A DNA stretch of 55,972 nucleotides, taken from contig LADT01000041.1 of NCBI GenBank assembly GCA_000961765.1, positions 1 through 55,972 on the forward strand, given 5' to 3'. The notes beneath the pieces are model-generated. The model was not told the origin of the DNA and ran no database searches. It was given only the letters and a program-made list of their open reading frames with translations. Each line of letters starts with the position of its first letter. Position 1 is the stretch's first letter. Source of the DNA: Clostridiaceae bacterium BRH_c20a (GTDB lineage: Bacteria > Bacillota > Peptococcia > Peptococcales > BICA1-8). Below are positions 42,087-55,972 of this stretch, in pieces. The position numbers and the translations under genes are program-made.

Positions 42087-43091
42087 TCAACTTTTTATTG
42101 ACCTACTAAACATAACCTGAGCATAATTCTCAATGTCATTAGGTGTTAGCATATTATACTTTTGCTTTACAGCACTAAAATACTCACCAATAATTTCTTT
42201 ACTGATTGTTCGGTTAGAATGTGCATCTGCCGGAAGTTTGCCACGCGTTTTGATCCAGGGCATTTCAGAGTGCGTAAACCGCTCTAGTATTTTTCCACTG
42301 TAACAGCAAAAGTTCTGAATAACACTGTCGATAACAGCTTTTTCCGAGTCCGTAAACACAGAAACATCAAACTCATCATTACTTTCGATCGGATCAAAAC
42401 GGTAACCGGAGTAACGGTTATAGATTTCCCGGTAAACCGGGCCGTGCACCCAAGCTTCGCAATCCTCGCTAAACAAGAAACTTTCCATAAATGCATGATA
42501 GAAACCCTGAATATAATATAAAGCTTTCTGCAATGCGAGCGGCGTAATATCTTCACACCGGAACAATAGGTAGTCGATTACATCCTCCACTTTAGAAACT
42601 TCAGTATTTTGCCCACCAAGCAATTCTATAATGGTACGTTTACTCTTTTCATATGCGGTTTGGGATTTTAAATTCCCTTTTTTTTCCTCCAGAAGCGATA
42701 AGTAAAAAGCTGGTTCCTCGTAAATTATCTGTAGCACATCGGAATACTGTTTTGATGGCATATCGCCATCACAATAACGAGTAAATGTCATCTCTCCCCA
42801 ACCTAAAAGTAAAGAAAGCGGACGTTTTCCAATATTATACTTTTGTGGGATCTCTAAGATATTTTCAAGCGAAATTATGTCATTTTTTTGGCGGTAAGCA
42901 TCATACAAAGCTTTTAGATTTCCATCCTCAATCTTTGCTACATAGACTTCAGAACCACATTCTGTACATATCGCTTTCTTTCCGGGATAATTATATTCTT
43001 CACCCTTCAATGTGCCTGTCATAGAAATACTTTCTACATAATAGGCGACATCTTTTCTGCATTCCTCACAGAATGTCATTTTCTCATTCAT
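42087..43091 (-). CDS. MqsA-like antitoxin with C-terminal Panacea (DUF4065) domain
   Basis: About 334 residues in three parts. A zinc finger (CEEC, residues about 8-11, and CTEC, about 41-44) and an Xre-like helix-turn-helix (LSLLLGWGEMTFTRYCDGDM) together copy the layout of MqsA. From about residue 175 a Panacea/SocA-type DUF4065 domain follows (VIDYLLFRCEDITPLALQKALYYIQGF, then AWVHGPVYREIYNRYSGY). Panacea domains are antitoxin modules that neutralise many kinds of toxin. It lies 27 bp downstream of the toxin gene. ATG at 43091 is seven bases after GGAGG. It should repress its own promoter through the helix-turn-helix. Confidence 0.85.
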   Translation of the reverse strand: MNEKMTFCEECRKDVAYYVESISMTGTLKGEEYNYPGKKAICTECGSEVYVAKIEDGNLKALYDAYRQKNDIISLENILEIPQKYNIGKRPLSLLLGWGEMTFTRYCDGDMPSKQYSDVLQIIYEEPAFYLSLLEEKKGNLKSQTAYEKSKRTIIELLGGQNTEVSKVEDVIDYLLFRCEDITPLALQKALYYIQGFYHAFMESFLFSEDCEAWVHGPVYREIYNRYSGYRFDPIESNDEFDVSVFTDSEKAVIDSVIQNFCCYSGKILERFTHSEMPWIKTRGKLPADAHSNRTISKEIIGEYFSAVKQKYNMLTPNDIENYAQVMFSRSIKS

Positions 43092-43118
43092 AAAGCTTCC
43101 TCCTTTCATTTCCGCAGA

Positions 43119-43529
43119 CTACCGGAATAGGTAATCTATCGGCTTGTTCCGCTTATGGAATGATATGACAAACACTCGGTTTCCTCCACTAACATCGATA
43201 ATGTTAAATTTTGTATAAATGTCTACCATTTCTTCATTACCTTCAAAATTGAATAACATGTCTTGCAGACAGAAAACATATAACACCTCATGCTCAAATC
43301 TCAAATTCGTATTTTGTAGGGTATGGCAAAAATCCTCGGGCGTGATTTTTAGAAGAATCTCTTTCTGTTTTTTACTGTTAAGATTATATTCGTTTATGAA
43401 ATCAATGTTTTCCTGTCTATTCTCGTTTTTTGAAATATAAAATCGGCTTTCTCTCACGCAATCCTGTATTATTTCCAAAACAGTAGAAATTTGCTTACTG
43501 GTATAATTCTGATTGTAATATGTGACCAT
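43119..43529 (-). CDS. MqsR-like toxin
   Basis: About 136 residues. The C-terminal half reads LKITPEDFCHTLQNTN, then EMVDIYTKFN and RVFVISFHKR, which follows the MqsR pattern (L-S-x-x-D-F-Y-K-S, then D-V, then V-L-I-V-S-F). MqsR is an mRNA interferase of the RelE fold. The N-terminal extension is longer than in MqsR (98 residues). Gene order toxin-antitoxin is that of mqsRA. ATG at 43529 is seven bases after GAGG; an upstream in-frame ATG has no ribosome site. The assignment rests on pattern and context, not a search. Confidence 0.65.
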   Translation of the reverse strand: MVTYYNQNYTSKQISTVLEIIQDCVRESRFYISKNENRQENIDFINEYNLNSKKQKEILLKITPEDFCHTLQNTNLRFEHEVLYVFCLQDMLFNFEGNEEMVDIYTKFNIIDVSGGNRVFVISFHKRNKPIDYLFR

Positions 43530-43561
43530 TGCATCACCTCTTTGCAATGCAATAATACTAT

Positions 43562-44112: not shown

Positions 44113-46726
44113 GTTTCAATTCCCTAGCGGGAATTAGTTTTTTTAGACCAGAGCAGAGGTGGCAAGAGGAGCACCCATCCATAAATCTCTGTTTCAATTC
44201 CCTAGCGGGAATTAGTTTTTTTTAGACGATTTCCAAGTTTGAGCTGTGGCAATTGTTTGGGCACGTTTCAATTCCCTAGCGGGAATTAGTTTTTTTTAGA
44301 CGAAGATGATAAAGACCCTAATAAAAACTCCGGAAAAGAGTTTCAATTCCCTAGCGGGAATTAGTTTTTTTTAGACTATGGTACCTACAATTATGGATGC
44401 TCCTGGTTGGAGTCAGTTTCAATTCCCTAGCGGGAATTAGTTTTTTTTAGACAAAATCAAAACAAGACGCAGAAGAAAAACTTTTAAAAGTGTTTCAATT
44501 CCCTAGCGGGAATTAGTTTTTTTTAGACTGTTTATCTAGTTCCAGGTAATCAAGTATTTTATTATAAAGTTTCAATTCCCTAGCGGGAATTAGTTTTTTT
44601 TAGACGAAAGTTGCATGTGGCAAGGTTATCTCAGGTATGTAAAGGTTTCAATTCCCTAGCGGGAATTAGTTTTTTTTAGACCGTTAGAAATACTTTTCAA
44701 GAAATGCGAATTACCATGTTTCAATTCCCTAGCGGGAATTAGTTTTTTTTAGACAAGTAGGGGCCCTGGGGTATAAAATACTAAATTCACACGTTTCAAT
44801 TCCCTAGCGGGAATTAGTTTTTTTTAGACTATCAAGAATCTACATTAGCGGTTTCCGCTAGATAGGAGTTTCAATTCCCTAGCGGGAATTAGTTTTTTTT
44901 AGACTCATTAATCTTGTGGGAGGAGTTCCGTTTTTTATTATGTTTCAATTCCCTAGCGGGAATTAGTTTTTTTTAGACAAAACAAAAAAACCCCAAAAAA
45001 TTACATTCACCGGGGTTCCCAGTTTCAATTCCCTAGCGGGAATTAGTTTTTTTTAGACTTTAGAAAAAACATTACTTGAATTGTCCGCTTATATGTTTCA
45101 ATTCCCTAGCGGGAATTAGTTTTTTTTAGACTAGCGGATTATACCCTCCCCTATCGAATAAATTCGAAAGTTTCAATTCCCTAGCGGGAATTAGTTTTTT
45201 TTAGACATTAAGAGGCTCTCCCTTACCCTTAAATTGGAGGTGAAATCTGTTTCAATTCCCTAGCGGGAATTAGTTTTTTTTAGACTCCCTGGGTTGGCTC
45301 AGTAAAGCTACAGATCAAGATTTGTTTCAATTCCCTAGCGGGAATTAGTTTTTTTTAGACAAATAATTTATACTATGCTGAAAAGGATCATAAAGCGTTT
45401 CAATTCCCTAGCGGGAATTAGTTTTTTTTAGACAGAGGTTGGCTAATGATATTAAGGGATTGTATAAGTATCAGAGTTTCAATTCCCTAGCGGGAATTAG
45501 TTTTTTTTAGACTTCTTAAAGTTATCTCGAAAAGCCCAAAGATGGGTTATGTTTCAATTCCCTAGCGGGAATTAGTTTTTTTTAGACAGCAACAAAAAAT
45601 AAACCTGTATCCAGCTTCCTTTAATGTTTCAATTCCCTAGCGGGAATTAGTTTTTTTTAGACATAGCCACGAAACAGCACTAGCCCGCATGACTCGCGAG
45701 TTTCAATTCCCTAGCGGGAATTAGTTTTTTTTAGACGGCTCGTGGTGGTATTGATGAAAAGGTGAATGAGAAGGTTTCAATTCCCTAGCGGGAATTAGTT
45801 TTTTTTAGACGTTGGTATTTTAATATTATTGAGAAGGTAGGTGTGATTAGTTTCAATTCCCTAGCGGGAATTAGTTTTTTTTAGACCATTACAAGCAAAA
45901 AAGATAATAAATGTTCGGGTTTTGGGTTTCAATTCCCTAGCGGGAATTAGTTTTTTTTAGACTTGTTGATTTGGTTGTTGGTAGTTTACAGATAATGACG
46001 TTTCAATTCCCTAGCGGGAATTAGTTTTTTTTAGACGGAAGGAAAATTGGTGAGGGGAGGCAAAAAGGTCATATTTTAGTTTCAATTCCCTAGCGGGAAT
46101 TAGTTTTTTTTAGACAAAAAATCCTTCTAGCCCCCGTAACACTCGACACATTCCTTCGTTTCAATTCCCTAGCGGGAATTAGTTTTTTTTAGACGGAAAT
46201 GGTGGATTTGCTGACAAGGGTAAGGTTCATGTTGTTTCAATTCCCTAGCGGGAATTAGTTTTTTTTAGACAGCAAGCTGCCCTATATGAAGGACAACCTA
46301 TGTTTCAGTGTTTCAATTCCCTAGCGGGAATTAGTTTTTTTTAGACGATTGGATGCAGCTCATAGGGGAAGATGGCCTAGGACGTTTCAATTCCCTAGCG
46401 GGAATTAGTTTTTTTTAGACTTATTATGCCGGTGGAGGAGATACCAAAGGTGATGGATCGTTTCAATTCCCTAGCGGGAATTAGTTTTTTTTAGACACCT
46501 TTATTAAAATTACGACAAAATTCGGCATTTTTGCTGTTTCAATTCCCTAGCGGGAATTAGTTTTTTTTAGACAGAATTAAAACAGGTTCTCGTTGAGAGA
46601 GGGATAACGGATCGTTTCAATTCCCTAGCGGGAATTAGTTTTTTTTAGACAATTGATTGCTTAAATCCTTATATTGATTTTAAAAGCATGTTTCAATTCC
46701 CTAGCGGGAATTAGTTTTTTTTAGAC
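44113..46726 (-). CRISPR. CRISPR array, 35 repeats, 34 spacers
   Basis: A 37-bp repeat (on the + strand GTTTCAATTCCCTAGCGGG, then AATTAG, eight T, AGAC) occurs 35 times with spacers of 36-43 bp. In the transcribed (minus) sense it begins GTCTAAAAAAAACTAATTCC and ends GGGAATTGAAAC. It forms a 7-bp stem AATTCCC/GGGAATT and leaves the canonical 8-nt handle ATTGAAAC. The repeat at 44113 has seven instead of eight T and marks the old end. The other copies appear identical. Leader and cas2 lie at the high-coordinate end, so new spacers enter at 46726. The uniform repeats suggest an active array. I found no spacer matching another place in the window. Confidence 0.98.
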
Positions 46727-46892: not shown

Positions 46893-47171
46893 CTAAAAAA
46901 TAATATCAGCTTCACCATAGATAAAAACAGGAATGCCCATGCGCTCTACTTTGCCTACGCAAGAGCTGCATTGCCTATAGAAAAATATGCTATCTTCTTT
47001 AGTATTCATTAAATTCCACAATTTATACTTCAGTTCAACAACATCAGTAGGGTGCAGCTTTGCTTCGAAAACACTATATTGAACAGGTGTAGCAAAATTC
47101 TTCAAAACTTTAAATATTTTATTTCGCCGCTTATCATCAGAAATATCGTAAACTATAACATAATTCTCCAT
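46893..47171 (-). CDS. cas2: CRISPR adaptation endonuclease Cas2
   Basis: A 92-residue ferredoxin-like protein. MENYVIVYDISDDKRRNKIF has the conserved Asp (residue 9), and QYSVFEAKLHP is the dimer strand. A CSSC pair occurs near residue 70. With Cas1 it integrates new spacers. It starts 6 bp after the cas4-cas1 stop; the ribosome site is weak (TTAGGTAAT), so translation is probably coupled. Confidence 0.96.
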   Translation of the reverse strand: MENYVIVYDISDDKRRNKIFKVLKNFATPVQYSVFEAKLHPTDVVELKYKLWNLMNTKEDSIFFYRQCSSCVGKVERMGIPVFIYGEADIIF

Positions 47172-47177
47172 ATATAA

Positions 47178-48794
47178 TTACCTAACAAGAAAAGCGTGAT
47201 AATTTTCCAATTCATTAGTAAGAACCTTTGCTAAAATCCTAGCCTGTAATTCAATAATGCGCCTGTAGCTAAGCTTATATTCAAATATTGGATGGGTTAT
47301 TTCTTCATTTATTCGATTGCGGTAAGCCTGAAATAATGCTTTTCTCCCCTTTTCCGTCATTTGACATCTTTCAAAGGATATTTCAAAATCATCTTTATTA
47401 ACCATTCCAGTATTGATAGCTGTTAAAACCGCTGAATCAACAATAATCGCCCGAAATTCCTCCATCATATCTAATGCTAGAGCAGGTCTGCCATAAAGAT
47501 TACTGTGATAGAATCCCAAATATGGATCTAAGCCCACCCGCATTAGTTCATTTATTACTTCTTTATTAAGTAGGGTATAGCCATAAGAAAGCATGGTATT
47601 GATGGGATCTCTGGGAGGTCTACGGTTACGACCTATGAAATAAAAATCATCATTATTTTTTAACAAGGAATCAAACACTTTAAAATATTCTTTACTGCCA
47701 TTCCCTTCATACCCCAAAAGCACATCCTTGCTTTTTGCTGTAGCAACCTTTTTTATTATTTTACTCAATTGCTCAACAACAGCCGTTATATCTCCTTTTT
47801 TCAAGGAACGGTTATAGCGCATAAGTAAAGTGCGCATATTGGCTAATTTACCTGTGATAAAAGCTTTTGCCAAATCTAGGCTCTTGGATGAATTATCTAT
47901 CGTCCTAGCTTGGGCCAAGCGCAAAATACTGTTTTTGCTGAGAATAGGATTAAGCCATCCCAGGTAATTCCCATAGGTAGTTCCGAAGTGGACAGGGATG
48001 GATCTCTTTAAAAGTTCCTGCAATAATTGACTAGAAATATTCACTGGACCAATTAATACTATCTGATCAACAGCATTCATAGGAATGTCTTTCACTATTT
48101 CTTTATCCTTAGTAAGTAAAATCCTTCCGTCCTTCTTTTTCAAATAAGCACCTGGTGTATCAACATACAATACCCGTCCCAAATTCGCTGTTGGCACAGG
48201 CCTACGAGGTTTTATAGTCCCTTCTTTTATAAAAGCCGTTTCTTGAGGCAAACAACGCTCAACCAAGCTGCAACCGTTACACCGCTGATCATTGACAGGG
48301 TCAGGCAAAATCTGTTCTTCAATAATACATCTACCCTGTTCTATAGTATGAATAGTTAGCTCCCTTAATTCCTGGGAAAGGGCTACCACTCTTCTTGATG
48401 ATGACTCGACATAAAAAATGTAACCCTGGTTAATCTCCTGATTTAGATATTCTTCTAGTAATAATGCTTGACAACAAACCTGGACATCGTCATTCAAGTT
48501 ATTTCGCAACTCACCTTTTTTATATTCTACCGGATAAATCAGACCTTCTTTTTCTTCCACTACATCTAAAGTGCCAGCAATTTTATAAAGCTCAGAATCT
48601 AAGTATATCTTTCTATGCTGTTTACGATCAGACCGCCATTGAACAGACCTTTCTTCCCGTCGTTCTTCCTGAAATTTTCCCTCTAGAGTGTGTTCGTTAT
48701 AATCCTGGGCTTGTTCAACAACCCGATAATAAAAATTCCTTGGACAATAGAGAATTTCCGCTACTGCTGAAATTGGCAATTTACATTCAATCAT
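47178..48794 (-). CDS. cas4-cas1: Cas4-Cas1 fusion protein
   Basis: A 538-residue fusion. Residues about 1-205 are Cas4, the exonuclease that trims prespacers and selects PAMs: first cluster Cys in YCPRNFYYR, nuclease residues in AGTLDVV and YPVEYKKGEL, and the Cys cluster CNGCSLVERC (about 167-176). Residues about 210-538 are Cas1: LGRVLYVDTPGAYLKKKDGRI at the N-terminal beta domain, catalytic Glu in LLGYEGNGSKEYF, His in LGFYHSNLYGRPALALD, and the acidic pair in MMEEFRAIIVDS. Fusion ties prespacer trimming to integration. Best known in I-G (I-U) and some V-B systems; less usual with an I-B effector. ATG follows a weak GGGTAGGG site. Confidence 0.95.
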   Translation of the reverse strand: MIECKLPISAVAEILYCPRNFYYRVVEQAQDYNEHTLEGKFQEERREERSVQWRSDRKQHRKIYLDSELYKIAGTLDVVEEKEGLIYPVEYKKGELRNNLNDDVQVCCQALLLEEYLNQEINQGYIFYVESSSRRVVALSQELRELTIHTIEQGRCIIEEQILPDPVNDQRCNGCSLVERCLPQETAFIKEGTIKPRRPVPTANLGRVLYVDTPGAYLKKKDGRILLTKDKEIVKDIPMNAVDQIVLIGPVNISSQLLQELLKRSIPVHFGTTYGNYLGWLNPILSKNSILRLAQARTIDNSSKSLDLAKAFITGKLANMRTLLMRYNRSLKKGDITAVVEQLSKIIKKVATAKSKDVLLGYEGNGSKEYFKVFDSLLKNNDDFYFIGRNRRPPRDPINTMLSYGYTLLNKEVINELMRVGLDPYLGFYHSNLYGRPALALDMMEEFRAIIVDSAVLTAINTGMVNKDDFEISFERCQMTEKGRKALFQAYRNRINEEITHPIFEYKLSYRRIIELQARILAKVLTNELENYHAFLVR

Positions 48795-48816: not shown

Positions 48817-51141
48817 TTAGCGAAGAAACTCTAAACCATACTGTTTATTATAAGGAATATCTAAAATATAAATCCCATTTTCCAGCTGAAGCTTTTCTCT
48901 TTGAGCAAAAGCCTTCTTCCGTCCAACACGAATACCCCGCTCTTTCAGTAGCACTTCCAAATCTTCTAAAGGAGAATATAGTTCCTTTGGCACTAGCATT
49001 AAAGTTGGTAAAATATCCTCCCTTGCCTTAAACGAACCTTGACTGTTCTCCTCATCCTCATCTCCATACCTTTCCTTGGGCGTTCTGCCAAAAACTAAAT
49101 CTTCCATGACCATTTCTTCCATTTTATAATCGGCTAAACGGGGTTCCTCTGGGTATAAATCATTAACCCATTGAATAGCAGCATTACTAGATAAAAATCC
49201 TTCGCTATTTTCCAGTATTGACCAACTGGTCTTTAAAATATTCTCGTTATAGGGTAATATCTCAATGCTATTTTCCCAGTTAACTGGAAAGATGTGCAGT
49301 TGATAAGAAAAGAACGGTGGAAACTGGGCTTTTTTACAAACTTCGCATCCACATATTGGAGGCGAGGGACCCTTCCCTCTGCGATGCAATCTCCCAGCCC
49401 TTTGAATAAGGCTATCTATTGGAGCAATTTCACTATACATAATATGACTAGAAATATCTAAACTCAATTCACAAATTTGGGTAGTAACTAAAATAATCTG
49501 CTGGTTATTCACTATTTTTTCCTGGGATAATAATAGAACTTCCTCGTCACTTCTTTTTTCCTGTTCTTTAAAAACTATTTTAATCAGTCTTTCTTTCAAT
49601 TCCCTGTCAGTTCTCGTAAACTGAGAATGATAACATATGATATTTACATCCTGGAATTGTTCTTGTAATTCCTTGGCGACCGCTTTAGCCCGCTCTACCT
49701 GATTAACAACAATCATTTGTTTTAAGTTAATATGTTCCCGAACCAAATTTATTAATTTAGGATTTAATTTGTTTTCCTTTATAAGAGGCTCATTTTCTAA
49801 GGTAACTTTACAAGCATTAGTATCAATTTCGGTTATTTGAACCAATTCATATTTTTGATTATCAGAGGCTTTTTGTAGTGCACTTTGAAAGGAAATGGGC
49901 AAAGTAGCACTCATAATAATATGGGGTATTGATAGTTCACGAAGAATAAATAAGCACTGTCCAATCTTGGCTAACAATAATGGGTCATAATAGTGGATTT
50001 CATCAAAAACAATTAGGGATGTTTGTAAATGACCGAACGCCCTATCAGAATAACGATAACAATGAAGTAAGGAATATAACAAGTGGTCAATAGTAGAAAT
50101 ATTTAATGGTTTTGCATACCAACAGTTAATTATTTTCTCTACTTTCAGGTAGTCTTCATCTTCCCCATCCCACTCCCTAGCCAGCATACTTTCAACTTCC
50201 GAATGATAAACCCCCACATCTTGAGCTTGAAATCCATATTTTTCTGGTTCAATGAAGTCCCAGTACATGGAGTTAGAAGTAAATTTAGTAGGAAGCGTAA
50301 AGATAAGCTTATTAACTTCACCTGCTTCTATAAGTCCATGGCATGCTAATAAAGCGGCACCTGTTTTCCCTGACCCGCAGCCGCCTTGGATTAATAAATT
50401 TCTTTTCCCCTTTTTAATCTTTTCCCTCACAGTATTTTGCAGATCATTAGTCCCTCTAACAACTTCTGAGTGAGTAAATCCTGACCATATTTCCGTCAAT
50501 GAAAAAGAAAATATTTTCTTACCAGCACTGGCCAAATAGTCTACATAAGTAAGCATTGCCAAAAGAAAAGAATACAGACTTTTAAACTGCAAACCTTTAT
50601 TTTCAGGAAGCCTTTCCACCATCATTTTAGCCTTTTGTACCCTATCCGCACCCTCAAAGCCTATAACCTGTGGAGGTAATCCTTTGATATCTTTGAGCCA
50701 GATACCTAAAATATTTTCTAATTCTTGAGTAAATATTGCAATTTTCCCCATGCCCTTTACTCTCTCACCGGCAAAAACATTATTATAAAGGAGCTGATGA
50801 TGTCCTAAAACTGCTAGTGCCGAGGCCAAAAATAAATTATTTCTGGGCCAACCTTTGGCTTCTCCATATAAATAAAAAGAAAAAAAGGCATGAGTAATTT
50901 TTCCTCTTTTTCTTTCATCTCGAATATATTTCTGCCAGAGAGTAGTCCCCTTCCCCAGGTCGTGACAAACAATGGTCTCTCTAACTAAAAAATTTAATTC
51001 ATTTCCTGAACTTAAACCCATTTTAACGGCAAGACAAGAATATACTTTGGTATGGGATAACCACAGGCTATCCCATACTTTCAAGCATCTAGTAATATGT
51101 TCATCTAGGGTTTGTCCATTACCCTTCGCCCAGATTTTCAT
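48817..51141 (-). CDS. cas3: CRISPR helicase-nuclease Cas3
   Basis: This 774-residue protein is recruited by Cascade to degrade the target. The HD nuclease domain is at the N-terminus: CHDLGKGTTLWQKYI (about 59-73), then HAFFS and GHHQLL. The helicase core starts with GGCGSGKTGAALLACHG (Walker A, about 254-270), then LIVFDEIHYYDP (Walker B), MSATLP, and QRAGRLHRRGKG near residue 590. HD and helicase are fused in one chain, as usual in I-B. ATG overlaps the cas5 stop (ATGA). Confidence 0.95.
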   Translation of the reverse strand: MKIWAKGNGQTLDEHITRCLKVWDSLWLSHTKVYSCLAVKMGLSSGNELNFLVRETIVCHDLGKGTTLWQKYIRDERKRGKITHAFFSFYLYGEAKGWPRNNLFLASALAVLGHHQLLYNNVFAGERVKGMGKIAIFTQELENILGIWLKDIKGLPPQVIGFEGADRVQKAKMMVERLPENKGLQFKSLYSFLLAMLTYVDYLASAGKKIFSFSLTEIWSGFTHSEVVRGTNDLQNTVREKIKKGKRNLLIQGGCGSGKTGAALLACHGLIEAGEVNKLIFTLPTKFTSNSMYWDFIEPEKYGFQAQDVGVYHSEVESMLAREWDGEDEDYLKVEKIINCWYAKPLNISTIDHLLYSLLHCYRYSDRAFGHLQTSLIVFDEIHYYDPLLLAKIGQCLFILRELSIPHIIMSATLPISFQSALQKASDNQKYELVQITEIDTNACKVTLENEPLIKENKLNPKLINLVREHINLKQMIVVNQVERAKAVAKELQEQFQDVNIICYHSQFTRTDRELKERLIKIVFKEQEKRSDEEVLLLSQEKIVNNQQIILVTTQICELSLDISSHIMYSEIAPIDSLIQRAGRLHRRGKGPSPPICGCEVCKKAQFPPFFSYQLHIFPVNWENSIEILPYNENILKTSWSILENSEGFLSSNAAIQWVNDLYPEEPRLADYKMEEMVMEDLVFGRTPKERYGDEDEENSQGSFKAREDILPTLMLVPKELYSPLEDLEVLLKERGIRVGRKKAFAQREKLQLENGIYILDIPYNKQYGLEFLR

Positions 51142-51800
51142 AAAACAACTCTCTTTTCACCTAATAAATAGGCTTCAATAGGTTCCTCTAACTGCATTTT
51201 GGAAGCAATATAATAACCCTGGTATTTTACACCACTCCAAGTCCTTCTGTTACCCCTTTCTTCAGCTAAAAAACCGATAGGTAAGTAAAACAGCTCCACC
51301 TTATTAACAGGTCTACCTAATTCCTGAGGTAATATACTGTCTATCTCCTGGGTCATGGTTTTTTTAATGGGGAAAACTTCAACTTCTTTAACCTCTACTA
51401 CATCATCAGATTCGCCCAAACACAAAGGAAAATAGGGATTATCTAAAGCTTTAGCAATATGTTCTATTAGTCCCTGTTCACCTTTGACAGCAATCTGATA
51501 AACCGGTTGGATTAATTTATGGCGCATAACTAAAGTCCGCATTTGTTTATCACGCCGGTCCCATTTAATTATTTTATTATAGCCTTCAATCCTCTCACCG
51601 GGCTTAATCAGTAATATTCCTATATCTAATTTATCCATATTACTATGATCATCACTGGACCAACCCATGGCAGCAGATAATAAGCCGAAGATTGTAGTGA
51701 TAGGCGGTACTGGGTAAGTAGTGTGAACATTTACAGCAGTTGGGATACGAAATGAGCACCAGACGGGGACTTCCAGAGTTGCTTTAAGAATAGCCTCCAT
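51138..51800 (-). CDS. cas5: Cascade subunit Cas5 (type I-B)
   Basis: A 220-residue RAMP protein. MEAILKATLEVPVWCSFRIP and the glycine-rich turn TTIFGLLSAAMGWSSDD are the Cas5 N-terminal signature. Cas5 holds the 5' handle of the crRNA in Cascade. ATG follows GGGGAG; the stop overlaps the cas3 start. It lies 13 bp after cas7. Confidence 0.93.
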   Translation of the reverse strand: MEAILKATLEVPVWCSFRIPTAVNVHTTYPVPPITTIFGLLSAAMGWSSDDHSNMDKLDIGILLIKPGERIEGYNKIIKWDRRDKQMRTLVMRHKLIQPVYQIAVKGEQGLIEHIAKALDNPYFPLCLGESDDVVEVKEVEVFPIKKTMTQEIDSILPQELGRPVNKVELFYLPIGFLAEERGNRRTWSGVKYQGYYIASKMQLEEPIEAYLLGEKRVVL

Positions 51801-51813
51801 ATTAAAATCTCCC

Positions 51814-52731
51814 CTATTTCCCTAATATTTCTTTCACCTTATCCATAACCTGAGAAACTCTCCTGACTTCTACTGCGTATTTTATTAATAAACTTTTAAC
51901 CTCTTCTTCGTTCTTGACTATACCGGGAGTAAAACCAAAGAAAACTTTATTACCTTCATCTGAATGTTGGGCTAGGGAATATTCTAATAATTCTAGATTT
52001 ACTTTCTTGTTTTCATCCAACTCCAGTGCCTTTAATCCTCTCTGGTTATAGGTATCCTGCAGCGATATCAGCAAAATATCCGGGGCTAAGGATGCAGCTG
52101 CTCTAGCTTGCTTCGCAAAACCTGCCAGGTTATAAATCCCATCCAATACTGCTTTTAACCTTTCCTGCCTTTCCTTTTCACCGATATCAATATGGGTATT
52201 CCAGCCCACTACCCTTTCTTCTTTACCTTTTCCTTCTGTAACAGGTACTTTAATTTTACCTATATTGTCAACGTCAACAACCATTCCAAACTTATAAATA
52301 TTCTCCGTCATCTGAACATGGGCAATCCGGTTGTCTTTACTCTTTTTGTTTCCTTCTTTATCAATTACACTGTGACGAGTTAAGAGGTCACTAGTTATAT
52401 CAGCCGTTATCTGACCTAATCCTGGTGTAACCTTAAGGGGTGACCATCTCCGATCACTGCCCACATCTTCCTTAGTAGCAAGAAATCCCCGCAAATCACA
52501 ACCCCAGCAGTTTTTTACATCACTACAAGGTCTTTCCGGAGTACAGATGAATTTTTCAGGATATGTTCTGGTCATAGTTTCAAATAAAGCAGTTCTAATA
52601 GCTTGACCTGATACATATGGTTTTTGCCCATAATCATAAGTTTTTAACTCTGTTAGGTTACCACTACCTTGTCCAGAATTTAAGTTACTTAAATCTGCTT
52701 TAGCTAACCATACTAAACTTAGACATTTCAT
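51814..52731 (-). CDS. cas7: Cascade backbone Cas7 (Cst2/DevR family)
   Basis: A 305-residue backbone protein of the Cst2/DevR group. The N-terminus LSLVWLAKADLSNLNSGQGSG and PYVSGQAIRTALFET match the family. CTPERPCSDVKNCWGC is a four-Cys insert that may bind zinc. AGFAKQARAAASLAPDILL is the conserved later helix. Cas7 subunits coat the guide and flip out every sixth base. ATG at 52731 overlaps the cas8 stop and is ten bases after GGAGG. Confidence 0.94.
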   Translation of the reverse strand: MKCLSLVWLAKADLSNLNSGQGSGNLTELKTYDYGQKPYVSGQAIRTALFETMTRTYPEKFICTPERPCSDVKNCWGCDLRGFLATKEDVGSDRRWSPLKVTPGLGQITADITSDLLTRHSVIDKEGNKKSKDNRIAHVQMTENIYKFGMVVDVDNIGKIKVPVTEGKGKEERVVGWNTHIDIGEKERQERLKAVLDGIYNLAGFAKQARAAASLAPDILLISLQDTYNQRGLKALELDENKKVNLELLEYSLAQHSDEGNKVFFGFTPGIVKNEEEVKSLLIKYAVEVRRVSQVMDKVKEILGK

Positions 52732-54356
52732 CAATTTTCAACCTCCTTTTTCTTAGCACTTCTTAAAGCATTCAAAGATGCGAAAATAATCAAAGTATCT
52801 TTAATAACGGCAAAGTTTGTATCATTTAGGTTGTTTAATAAATTTTCTACCCGTGCTTCCTCTGGAACATGTAAATTAAGCTCTTGTTTATGGGTCTGTT
52901 GAATTCTATTCATTTTAAAAAGTGTCTGACTCAAAACTTTCCTTAAAGCATCCTTATTGTGGGCATTATTGAGGTTAGTAAATAGTCCTATATCATCTTG
53001 GAATATGCATCCGATGGAACGGGCAATTATCTTAATATCTTCTAGTAATTCCTTACTTAACAATTGGTCCACCTCCCCTAATGCTTTAATAATAAATTCT
53101 TCTAAAAAGCTGATACTATTAAAGGTTAGTTTAGCCCCTTCACGATAATATTGGAAAAGACTTTCTGCCACTAACCTCCACCTTTGTAAAACTATACCTT
53201 GAGCAAAGAAATCTATATTTCTTTTATCACCACTGTACCAAAAAGGTAAAAAACTCTGGACTAGATTACCTTTGCGGCCATAATCCTTTCCATAAGGAAA
53301 TTCCTTAACCAAATCAAATAGGCGGTGGTGTACATCTACCATAGAAAATACATTAAAAATTACATTCTGTCCTTTGTTGTAACGGATAACATGCCAGCGA
53401 TGCAGATAAGGTTTTTCAATCTCATCCCAATCTGTATCTTCCTCAAACTTACCTATTACCGCCGAGTATTTATATTGAATGGCAAAATATAAAGTAATTA
53501 CTGTTGGAAATAAAGTGCGGTGTTTAAGTTCCGGGATATTAGTCTGATATGAATAAAGGTTTGCAGTATCCATGTCAATTAATTTGGAAAACTTATTATA
53601 GACCTTTTCTAGTACAATAAGATTAGTTACTTCAGGTAAAAGTAGGTTGGTAGACTCCCCTATAACATAAGGCAAGTTTGAAGAATAGGCAGCCAAAGAA
53701 TTCAAAAAATTACAAAGAGGACACATGTCCATTGTCTCTACGGAGTTTGCATGTCCCCGAACCTTATTATTGTGGTGTTGGTTATAAGAAGGGTTCTTGT
53801 TTTGACGCATAGCTACCCCGTTTTTTTTCCTATAAGGTAAACTGCACACAGGACAATAGGTGATTTCTCTTAACCCAGTTTTTTCAAAAAACTGCCCTGT
53901 AAAACCTTCAACTAATCCCGTTAGTTCTTGTACTGCCTTTTCCCAGTCTGGTGTAATTCCTACATAATTTCTTCTCAATTCAACTCTTGCCAAATTACCA
54001 GTTGGTCTTTTTTTAGTTGCCTCAAAAACTGAGGAATTTTCTTCTTTAGCTAATGGGACAGTATAACGAGCATCAAAAAAACCATTGGAATTCTTTTTGC
54101 GTTCTAAATTTAAGACCTTCATGGAAAAATCTTTTAAAACAATATTGTTTAACATCTGCTTTAAATACTCATACATTTCTTTATTAATAGTCTCAGCAGT
54201 AACATCTGGTTTAATTTGGATCTTCAGTAAGTTAGCTGTTAATTCTGGTTTAGATGTAAAATACCTTTGAAATGATGGTAATGAGAGCATTTTATAAAGG
54301 GTAATAATTCCCCAATCCCTCCAGGGATCTCCCACGCTATTTATCACCCATTTCAA
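52731..54356 (-). CDS. cas8b1: Cascade large subunit Cas8b1/Cst1
   Basis: About 541 residues. It has a zinc ribbon formed by CPVC (about residue 170) and CPLC (about 215), with a His/Asn-rich loop between (NPSYNQHHNNKVRGHANS), typical of Cst1-type Cas8 proteins. The C-terminal part is helical. Cas8 recognises the PAM and recruits Cas3. The likely start is TTG at 54356, eight bases after GGAGG; the GTG at 54365 sits directly on the ribosome site. Combined with Cst2-type Cas7 this places the locus in the Tneap-like branch of I-B. Confidence 0.9.
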   Translation of the reverse strand: MKWVINSVGDPWRDWGIITLYKMLSLPSFQRYFTSKPELTANLLKIQIKPDVTAETINKEMYEYLKQMLNNIVLKDFSMKVLNLERKKNSNGFFDARYTVPLAKEENSSVFEATKKRPTGNLARVELRRNYVGITPDWEKAVQELTGLVEGFTGQFFEKTGLREITYCPVCSLPYRKKNGVAMRQNKNPSYNQHHNNKVRGHANSVETMDMCPLCNFLNSLAAYSSNLPYVIGESTNLLLPEVTNLIVLEKVYNKFSKLIDMDTANLYSYQTNIPELKHRTLFPTVITLYFAIQYKYSAVIGKFEEDTDWDEIEKPYLHRWHVIRYNKGQNVIFNVFSMVDVHHRLFDLVKEFPYGKDYGRKGNLVQSFLPFWYSGDKRNIDFFAQGIVLQRWRLVAESLFQYYREGAKLTFNSISFLEEFIIKALGEVDQLLSKELLEDIKIIARSIGCIFQDDIGLFTNLNNAHNKDALRKVLSQTLFKMNRIQQTHKQELNLHVPEEARVENLLNNLNDTNFAVIKDTLIIFASLNALRSAKKKEVEN

Positions 54357-54361
54357 TATTT

Positions 54362-55147
54362 TCACCTCCTTTTTTCTAAAATATATCGAGAGTCACCTAA
54401 CCCCATAGACGTCTTATAACCAATCGCTGCAATATCTGCAAAAGCCGCAAGGCTGTGCAGCATTCTTTTTTTATGGCTAGGCTCTGATTTATCGATTATA
54501 TAACTACAATTGCCCACGCAGCCAACTATTTTATATATACTATAATCAACTAATTCAGTTTTTAATTTGTATTTACTAACAAATATCTTGGTATTTAATA
54601 CTCCGTCCGTTAATACCACCGGACTAAAGCTATTCCATTTTCTCAATATACTGCCAAATACCAAATTCGGCAAAGGAAAGACCTCCTGGATACCCTGTTG
54701 GCGAAAACTGGTTGGTGACCGAAATTCTAAAGTAATTTCGGAGCTTATTTCATTTTTTTCTAATAGATCAAAATAAGTAAGACCATTTTCCCCAAAAATA
54801 GGAATTATCTCTGTACATAATAACTTTCCACTCCCCAACTGAATTTTCGTGCCCTTTAATTCTTTAGAAATCATCTCTAATACTTTATACATTTCTTGAT
54901 TTAAAGAAGCTAATGAAAAGGAGTATTCACTGTTTTCATCTAAAAAAATTTTCCCCCGTTCCTTCTTGCCTCCATTTACTGGTCCTATAACAAAGGGTTT
55001 TTCATCCATATCATGAATGCTAGAGCTTAAATCTGGGGCTATCTCTTTTAGCCAGTTAAAAAGCCACCCATGTATTTCTGTACCACCATATCCCTTTAAC
55101 ATTCCGAATGCCATACATCTCATTTTTATAATAAGTTTTTGTAACAT
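54362..55147 (-). CDS. cas6: crRNA-processing endoribonuclease Cas6
   Basis: This 261-residue protein, first of the operon, cuts the precursor transcript 8 nt upstream of each spacer. FRSPTSFRQQGIQEVFPLPNL and VFGSILRKWNSFSP are typical of Cas6, and the C-terminal glycine-rich loop AIGYKTSMGLGDSRY is diagnostic. His residues near 26 (EIHGW) may be catalytic. ATG at 55147 is seven bases after GGAGG. That GGAGG directly abuts a degenerate repeat hairpin (55160-55182), which Cas6 could bind. Confidence 0.94.
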   Translation of the reverse strand: MLQKLIIKMRCMAFGMLKGYGGTEIHGWLFNWLKEIAPDLSSSIHDMDEKPFVIGPVNGGKKERGKIFLDENSEYSFSLASLNQEMYKVLEMISKELKGTKIQLGSGKLLCTEIIPIFGENGLTYFDLLEKNEISSEITLEFRSPTSFRQQGIQEVFPLPNLVFGSILRKWNSFSPVVLTDGVLNTKIFVSKYKLKTELVDYSIYKIVGCVGNCSYIIDKSEPSHKKRMLHSLAAFADIAAIGYKTSMGLGDSRYILEKRR

Positions 55148-55159
55148 TCTCTTCCCTCC

Positions 55160-55231
55160 TTAAATTCCCCAAGGGGAATTAGAAATAATAAAGCATAATA
55201 TTTTCATTTTTCAATTCTCAACAAGAATTAG
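55160..55231 (-). ncRNA. crRNA-like element: two pseudo-repeats and a pseudo-spacer (CreA/CreR-like)
   Basis: In transcription order: pseudo-repeat 1 (55231-55208) reads CTAATTCTTGTTGAGAATTG then AAAA, keeping the AATTC/GAATT stem and an 8-nt handle ATTGAAAA (array: ATTGAAAC). A 25-nt pseudo-spacer (55207-55183) begins ATGAAAATATTATGCTTT. Pseudo-repeat 2 (55182-55160) reads CTAATTCCCCTTGGGGAATT then TAA; the stem is kept at 8 bp but the handle is lost. Over 23 aligned bases repeat 2 matches the array repeat at 19. The order and the position just before cas6 match known Cascade-guiding regulators (CreA, CreR). Cas6 should be able to process it. RNA has not been shown. Confidence 0.7.
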
Positions 55232-55250
55232 CCATTTATATTTTGGCTCA

Positions 55251-55278
55251 TCAATGAATATATTATGCTTATTTTTTT
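55251..55278 (+). promoter_or_regulatory. Putative target of the crRNA-like guide, with TCA PAM
   Basis: TCA at 55251-55253 is followed by ATGAATATATTATGCTTA (55254-55271). Compared with the pseudo-spacer ATGAAAATATTATGCTTT the only differences in 18 positions are at 6 and 18. The site lies just downstream of the predicted cas6 promoter, so Cascade binding would block the operon. Beyond position 18 the match weakens (mismatches at 19 and 22). Confidence 0.65.
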
Positions 55279-55285
55279 AGATTTC

Positions 55286-55376: not shown

Positions 55377-55445
55377 GAAAAGTAATAAAATCACAAAGGA
55401 GCATCGGATCGAGTAGCCGGGGCTTCACAGCCCCAAGCCCTCACA

Positions 55446-55478
55446 GAACCGGACTTGCGCTACTAACGCATCCGGCTC
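55446..55478 (-). ncRNA. Group II intron domain V
   Basis: A 33-nt hairpin: GAGCCGGAT at one side and GTCCGGTTC at the other, with the bulge and AGTAGC-type loop region of the catalytic domain V. Confidence 0.75.
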
Positions 55479-55491
55479 TTCACACCACCAT

Positions 55492-55972
55492 TCACATAGC
55501 ATAGCTACTTCCCATTCCTAGGTCGAATATTCTTACATGAGTTTTGGCTTTTGGTAATGGATACTTTTTCAGAAATAGATTAAACTTACCCCAATTAAAA
55601 CTTTTACATTGACTTCTTCTGTTTAACCATTTGTATAGAATCCTTCCAACTTCATAAATGAAATTGCTTACTGCATTTAGATTATCCGTTACTCCATAAT
55701 ATCTACAATATCCTTGCAGTTTAATATTCATTTTCTGCATGAAGTCTTTAATTGGCATGTTTCTGTTCATTTTAATCCATAATTTACAACGAAGTAAGCT
55801 TACTCTATATTTCTTCTTGCTTGTCTTGCGTTTTATGCGTTTCGACCCATTTTTGTCCTTACCCATATAATGCGTAAAACCCAGAAAATCAAATGAGTTA
55901 TTTCCTTTACATCCTCCTGCGATATTGTCCTCATCATTATCTTCTTTTCCCAAGGATAGAATCTTCGTCTTT
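55492..55972 (-). CDS. ltrA: Group II intron reverse transcriptase/maturase, C-terminal part
   Basis: The frame is open to the window edge; the visible part begins KTKILSLGKEDNDED (end of the reverse-transcriptase thumb). It goes on with NSFDFLGFTHYMGK and RKTSKKK, then the maturase domain X: MPIKDFMQKMNIKLQGYCRYYGV and FIYEVGRILYKWLNRRSQ. These are hallmarks of bacterial intron-encoded proteins, which splice the intron RNA and copy it into new DNA sites. About 160 of more than 400 residues are in view. No frameshift in the visible part. Confidence 0.92.
   Translation of the reverse strand, partial: KTKILSLGKEDNDEDNIAGGCKGNNSFDFLGFTHYMGKDKNGSKRIKRKTSKKKYRVSLLRCKLWIKMNRNMPIKDFMQKMNIKLQGYCRYYGVTDNLNAVSNFIYEVGRILYKWLNRRSQCKSFNWGKFNLFLKKYPLPKAKTHVRIFDLGMGSSYAM

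Follow-up and report, generated by a model that had tools for sequence, protein, structure and literature searches.

A mini-CRISPR in the cas6 leader as a probable CreR-type autorepressor of a type I-B cas operon

At the end of the window, by which the whole analysed stretch of 55,972 nucleotides is meant, a type I-B cas operon lies on the minus strand and is followed by a CRISPR array. Its leader contains repeat-like elements of its own, which raises the question of whether they frame a guide that directs Cascade back to this operon, or whether they belong to an RNA structure, a decayed array or a different kind of regulatory site. The operon and the array are made up as follows.

54362..55147, minus strand: cas6, the first gene of the operon (TIGR01877)
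52731..54365, minus strand: large subunit in the cas8 position, without NCBIfam match, 56% identical to that of Peptococcaceae bacterium UBA3933
51814..52734, minus strand: cas7 (Cst2/DevR, type I-B; TIGR02585)
51138..51800, minus strand: cas5 (TIGR02593 above cut-off, TIGR01895 below its cut-off)
48817..51141, minus strand: cas3 with HD and helicase domains (TIGR01587, TIGR01596)
47178..48794, minus strand: cas4-cas1 fusion (NF049935)
46893..47171, minus strand: cas2 (TIGR01573)
44113..46726, minus strand: CRISPR array of 35 repeats GTCTAAAAAAAACTAATTCCCGCTAGGGAATTGAAAC and 34 spacers of 36-43 nt

The cas4-cas1 fusion passes the type I-G model NF049935 and is accompanied by effector genes of type I-B. 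Downstream of the array, at 42087-43547, one protein matches both MqsA-type and SocA-type antitoxins and adjoins a small unknown protein; these two genes are likely a toxin-antitoxin pair.

The leader before cas6

In the leader, a target, a first repeat, a pseudo-spacer and a second repeat follow each other in this order and are succeeded by the Shine-Dalgarno sequence of cas6.

55254..55271, plus strand: target (pseudo-protospacer) ATGAATATATTATGCTTA, pairing with guide positions 1-5 and 7-17
55251..55253, plus strand: TCA at the PAM position, with TCT at this place in UBA3933 and in the more distant genome G361
55262..55267, minus strand: CATAAT, a candidate -10 within the target predicted from the sequence, with a weak -35; the UBA3933 target has CATAAT too
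55208..55231, minus strand: PsiR1, degenerate first repeat CTAATTCTTGTTGAGAATTGAAAA, found by match to the repeat pattern
55208..55215, minus strand: 5' handle ATTGAAAA of 8 nt in PsiR1, 7/8 identical to the array repeat
55183..55207, minus strand: pseudo-spacer (guide) ATGAAAATATTATGCTTTATTATTT, 25 nt long as compared with array spacers of 36-43 nt
55158..55182, minus strand: PsiR2, degenerate second repeat, with the hairpin AATTCCC-CTTG-GGGAATT kept and the handle degenerate (ATTTAAGG, 5/8)
55154..55161, minus strand: cas6 Shine-Dalgarno sequence AAGGAGGG, which shares bases with the 3' end of PsiR2

PsiR1 retains both ends of the array repeat, and the hairpin AATTCCC/GGGAATT of PsiR2 is the hairpin stem of the array, intact. 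The target lies 107 bp upstream of cas6, and the facing ends of the 17-bp guide and target arms are 46 bp apart. A sequence-only reading had already described two degenerate repeats around a 25-nt pseudo-spacer with an 8-nt handle in this leader, and on re-reading, its coordinates and bases for repeats, pseudo-spacer and target proved correct. The same reading had reported that the first 18 bases of the guide differ from the target at positions 6 and 18 only, and this is what the sequence holds: 17 bases are matched with position 6 left free, then the match fades, so that 21/25 bases are matched overall. Repeat-like elements around a spacer-like sequence within a cas locus and a limited complementarity (17 paired positions followed by fading, in a guide of 25 nt vs spacers of 36-43 nt) are both features by which the regulatory RNA CreR is recognised.

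Both the mini-CRISPR and the match between guide and target exceed chance. The 17-mer ATGAANATATTATGCTT, with position 6 free, occurs in exactly two copies in the whole 4.5-Mb genome, which are the guide and the target. After a handle-like motif, a match of 17 nt was reached in 0/400 dinucleotide shuffles of the leader, in which the longest was 13, and the fixed guide was matched as well in 0/3000 shuffles of the flank, whether or not TC was required at the PAM place. For the repeats, PsiR1 is the sole match in the window to CTAATTCN7GAATTGAAA (zero mismatches), and PsiR2 fits CTAATTCCCNNNNGGGAATT exactly, for which 0.01 matches are expected per window. A copy of the guide with one mismatch elsewhere in the genome (C76) was judged to be a chance match; it lacks TC at the PAM position.

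The sequence-only reading also pointed to TCA at the PAM position, and this trinucleotide is indeed present and has a precedent, since both TCA and TCT are functional PAMs in vivo in the type I-B system of C. pasteurianum (PMC4860712). Support for the native PAM comes from one diverged protospacer: the array spacer at 45513-45550 agrees at 31/38 positions with a site elsewhere in this genome, with TCC before the protospacer, consistent with TCN; the target has TCA in the window and TCT in two relatives. The self-matched site (L109, G000:C45, about 1313-1350) is on a contig bearing a fragment that resembles a conjugation coupling protein, and this contig is possibly an escaped mobile element. 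Array spacers gave no matches to phages and plasmids, six spacer patterns were not found in viral contigs, and a spacer hit in gatC of another genome (G006) was judged to be chance.

That the target is the cas promoter region is plausible from the sequence. A promoter scan of the AT-rich leader gave ambiguous calls and did not pick out CATAAT. The best consensus hit, TTGAAA-18-TATTAT, lies inside the mini-CRISPR, where a promoter would produce a cas mRNA lacking the guide; it was dismissed as noise from AT-rich sequence. Directly upstream of the leader, at 55400-55972, the contig breaks off within a group II intron, which was recognised from a domain V/VI match (55408-55480, minus strand) and from a portion of an intron-encoded ORF.

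Guide and target in related genomes

Comparisons were made within 46 genomes of the class, all of them from other genera. The nearest cas6 (52% identity) belongs to Peptococcaceae bacterium UBA3933 (G001, L010/L077), which is the only close relative available for comparison and whose contig begins inside the target. Its operon cas6-8-7-5-3 is syntenic with that of the window at 52-74% identity, and the repeat of its array differs in the loop. In its leader, the parts follow one another as in the window, with the guide ATGAAAATGATTATGTA, the target ATGAATATGATTATGTA and TCT at the PAM place. A comparison with relatives had been proposed in the sequence-only reading, and in UBA3933, guide and target have changed together: one inserted G and two substitutions are common to both arms, and only the mismatch at position 6 persists. 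Pairing between guide and target, another mark of CreR, is thus upheld in this one relative. In both genomes, the pairing reaches one base into the handle and the PAM (A/A in the window, 55145-55285; T/T in UBA3933, L010 1-139), which use as a guide leaves unexplained.

Such coupled arms could also form a long hairpin in the leader of the cas mRNA, acting in cis with or without Cas6 on the repeat-like hairpins and involving no trans-acting guide. A stem and a guide both predict coupled arms, and coupled change alone can therefore not separate the two readings. The arms pair if transcription starts upstream of 55271 on the minus strand, with z-scores of -4.6 (window) and -3.9 (UBA3933) as compared with -0.9 when the RNA begins after the target, and the covarying pairing includes the one base beyond the guide (A/A, T/T). 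A stem does not account, however, for an A.A mismatch at position 6 that is kept while its neighbours change in step, although a single mismatch falls on a sixth position by chance in about 2/17 of cases and both genomes may share it by descent. Nor does it account for pairing that begins, within one base, at the handle-guide junction, or for the TC dinucleotide retained at the PAM position. The inverted layout of the two arms is normal for guides, as in the CreA of H. hubeiense, which represses the promoter of its own operon and whose PAM lies on the strand complementary to the BRE element (PMC8501985).

A further point is the way in which the repeats have decayed. The 5' handle, to which Cas5 binds, agrees with the array repeat at 7, 6 and 6 of 8 positions in PsiR1, and at 5, 2 and 1 of 8 in PsiR2, in the window, UBA3933 and G361, respectively. 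CreA is described as having decayed in the same way, PsiR1 preserving the handle and PsiR2 only the hairpin (PMC9458426; PMC8501985). Retention of the handle in PsiR1 alone points to use as a guide and would be meaningless for a plain RNA stem.

G361 (L084) carries a distant orthologous system (36% identity for cas6, 62% for cas7), in which PsiR1, a pseudo-spacer of 33 nt, PsiR2, a terminator and a promoter (TTGACA-17-TATACT) are found in this order. The first 11 bases of its guide match across the -10 of its own cas promoter, next to the PAM TCT; this match length was reached in 4/3000 shuffles, and in 0/3000 when TC was required. Matches of 11-12 nt arise by chance in some cas6 leaders, and the case of G361 is for this reason argued from flanking repeats, PAM and promoter overlap and not from length alone. 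The terminator between guide and target places them in separate transcription units, which speaks against a stem in one leader. Overall, the hairpin is the main rival of the guide reading but appears unlikely.

Guide-target pairs were searched for in both orientations in the leaders of the other cas6 relatives, and none was convincing outside the window, UBA3933 and G361. No convincing mini-CRISPR unit lies in the leader of G053, a genome congeneric with G361, and related systems of this kind seem to have lost the element. In G247 (L037 2256-3212), a protein overlaps the cas6 start where other relatives carry the mini-CRISPR; its sequence reads like a WYL-type transcription regulator, and the arrangement suggests an exchange of regulators. 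Given these two genomes, the mini-CRISPR switch is not universal. A solitary repeat-like hairpin was seen in still another genus (L052 about 1300-1530, G004:C65), behind a sequence resembling the array leader of the window, and may be what is left of an array since lost.

The apparent loss in G053 and like systems, together with the degeneracy of both repeats, would also suit a decayed mini-array without remaining function, its match to the target being a chance hit or a relic. Against this stand the coupling of guide and target between genera, the retention of handle and hairpin each where it is needed and a match of 17 nt vs at most 13 in shuffles, which together make such a relic very improbable.

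A probable autorepressor and its known counterparts

The leader unit probably supplies a CreR-type guide, through which Cascade represses the operon that encodes it. Self-repression was the central proposal of the sequence-only reading, and it gains support here from the coupled change in UBA3933, the handle pattern in three genomes and the separate units of G361. From the layout of the leader, we infer transcription, processing, binding and repression in the following way. A cas mRNA carrying PsiR1, pseudo-spacer and PsiR2 in its leader would arise from a promoter that coincides with the target or lies immediately before it, with CATAAT (55262-55267, minus strand) as the presumed -10. Cas6 would cut in PsiR1 and PsiR2 and free a short crRNA-like RNA composed of the handle ATTGAAAA, the 25-nt guide and a 3' hairpin, with a predicted length of about 50 nt and starting with AUUGAAAA at 55215 on the minus strand. 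Cascade loaded with this short RNA would bind at 55251-55278 beside the TCA PAM, over the presumed -10 and the start of the operon, and would thereby block cas transcription. As soon as Cascade is claimed by array crRNAs or anti-CRISPRs and is no longer available to the guide, cas transcription would be expected to rise.

A short guide that pairs over 17 bases, position 6 being flipped out, would be sufficient for binding but not for cutting by Cas3. Guides of at most 26 nt repress without cleavage in type I-B, and 24 nt is given as the switch point for H. hispanica (PMC10551041). As the operon encodes a Cas3 with HD and helicase domains, limited pairing matters for sparing the chromosome, and a short guide whose match fades after 17 bases would avoid its cutting. 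The truncated type I-B crRNAs of P. thermoglucosidasius resemble the guide of the window in that guides of at most 26 nt bind and repress despite Cas3; those crRNAs were engineered, whereas the guide of the window is native (PMC10551041).

By its anatomy and its predicted action, the unit is a CreR, and this kind of switch is already known. Liu et al. reportedly described CreR (cas-regulating RNA) in type I-B, I-E and V-A systems in 2023. According to a review, CreR is a degenerate mini-CRISPR by the cas operon with limited complementarity to the cas promoter that guides the effector to autorepression, and draining of Cascade by array crRNAs or anti-CRISPRs frees cas transcription (PMC12737573). 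The unit of the window likewise is a degenerate mini-CRISPR beside the cas operon, has a partial match to the presumed promoter and is predicted to act in autorepression. It differs in its position within the cas6 leader, in the second repeat lying over the Shine-Dalgarno sequence of cas6 and in the 17-nt match. A 2023 NAR survey (Shmakov), cited in PMC10651486, reportedly describes repeat-like elements by cas genes with a predicted regulatory role, and the window has such elements adjoining its cas genes too.

The likeness to CreA of the CreTA system in H. hubeiense includes two divergent repeats, the handle of PsiR1, the hairpin half of PsiR2, the free position 6, the PAM and repression of the own promoter, which for the window is a prediction. 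Positions 6 and 12 of that CreA tolerate mutation, while 1-5 and 7-11 are needed (PMC8501985). The identical layout and the inverted repeat formed by the site might speak for a CreA-type antitoxin or for an inverted-repeat operator bound by a protein repressor. Repression of a linked toxin RNA gene, by which CreTA is recognised, has no counterpart in the window: no toxin-like or other separate unit lies between target and cas6, and it is the cas operon itself that the target precedes. The match is also longer than that of CreA, with 17 as compared with 10 seed bases. For an operator, arms of 17 bp with facing ends 46 bp apart and repeat-like flanks would be unusual, and an antitoxin or operator is accordingly most improbable at this site.

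A repeat-like hairpin over the cas6 ribosome-binding site

Repeat-like elements spanning -37 to -11 relative to the start of cas6 occur in the window, in UBA3933 and, within another family, in the genomes G179, G347 and G256. The elements of G179 and G347 score far above shuffles, and that of G256 is weaker. Neither a recognisable PsiR1 nor a guide was found in the leaders of these three genomes, in which no cas8 follows directly after cas6. Such guide-less elements suggest, judged from their position, an independent feedback of Cas6 on its own mRNA.

The repeat-like hairpin over the cas6 Shine-Dalgarno sequence may be a new detail. Tentatively, PsiR2 could have a dual role, serving the guide RNA as its 3' repeat and forming a Cas6-binding hairpin on the ribosome-binding site of cas6, in which case one cut would free the guide and reshape the start of the cas mRNA. 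If this were true, Cas6 would control its own translation besides supplying the transcriptional repressor, and the overlap of PsiR2 points to a simple test of such control through repeat-like hairpins.

For the CreR-type guide as a whole, repressor RNA and cas mRNA would share a single transcript and depend on a single processing enzyme. The locus would be a natural example of joint divergence, between genera, of an autorepressor guide and its target, in which the flipped-out sixth base has remained free, and this pattern constitutes evolutionary evidence for use as a guide.
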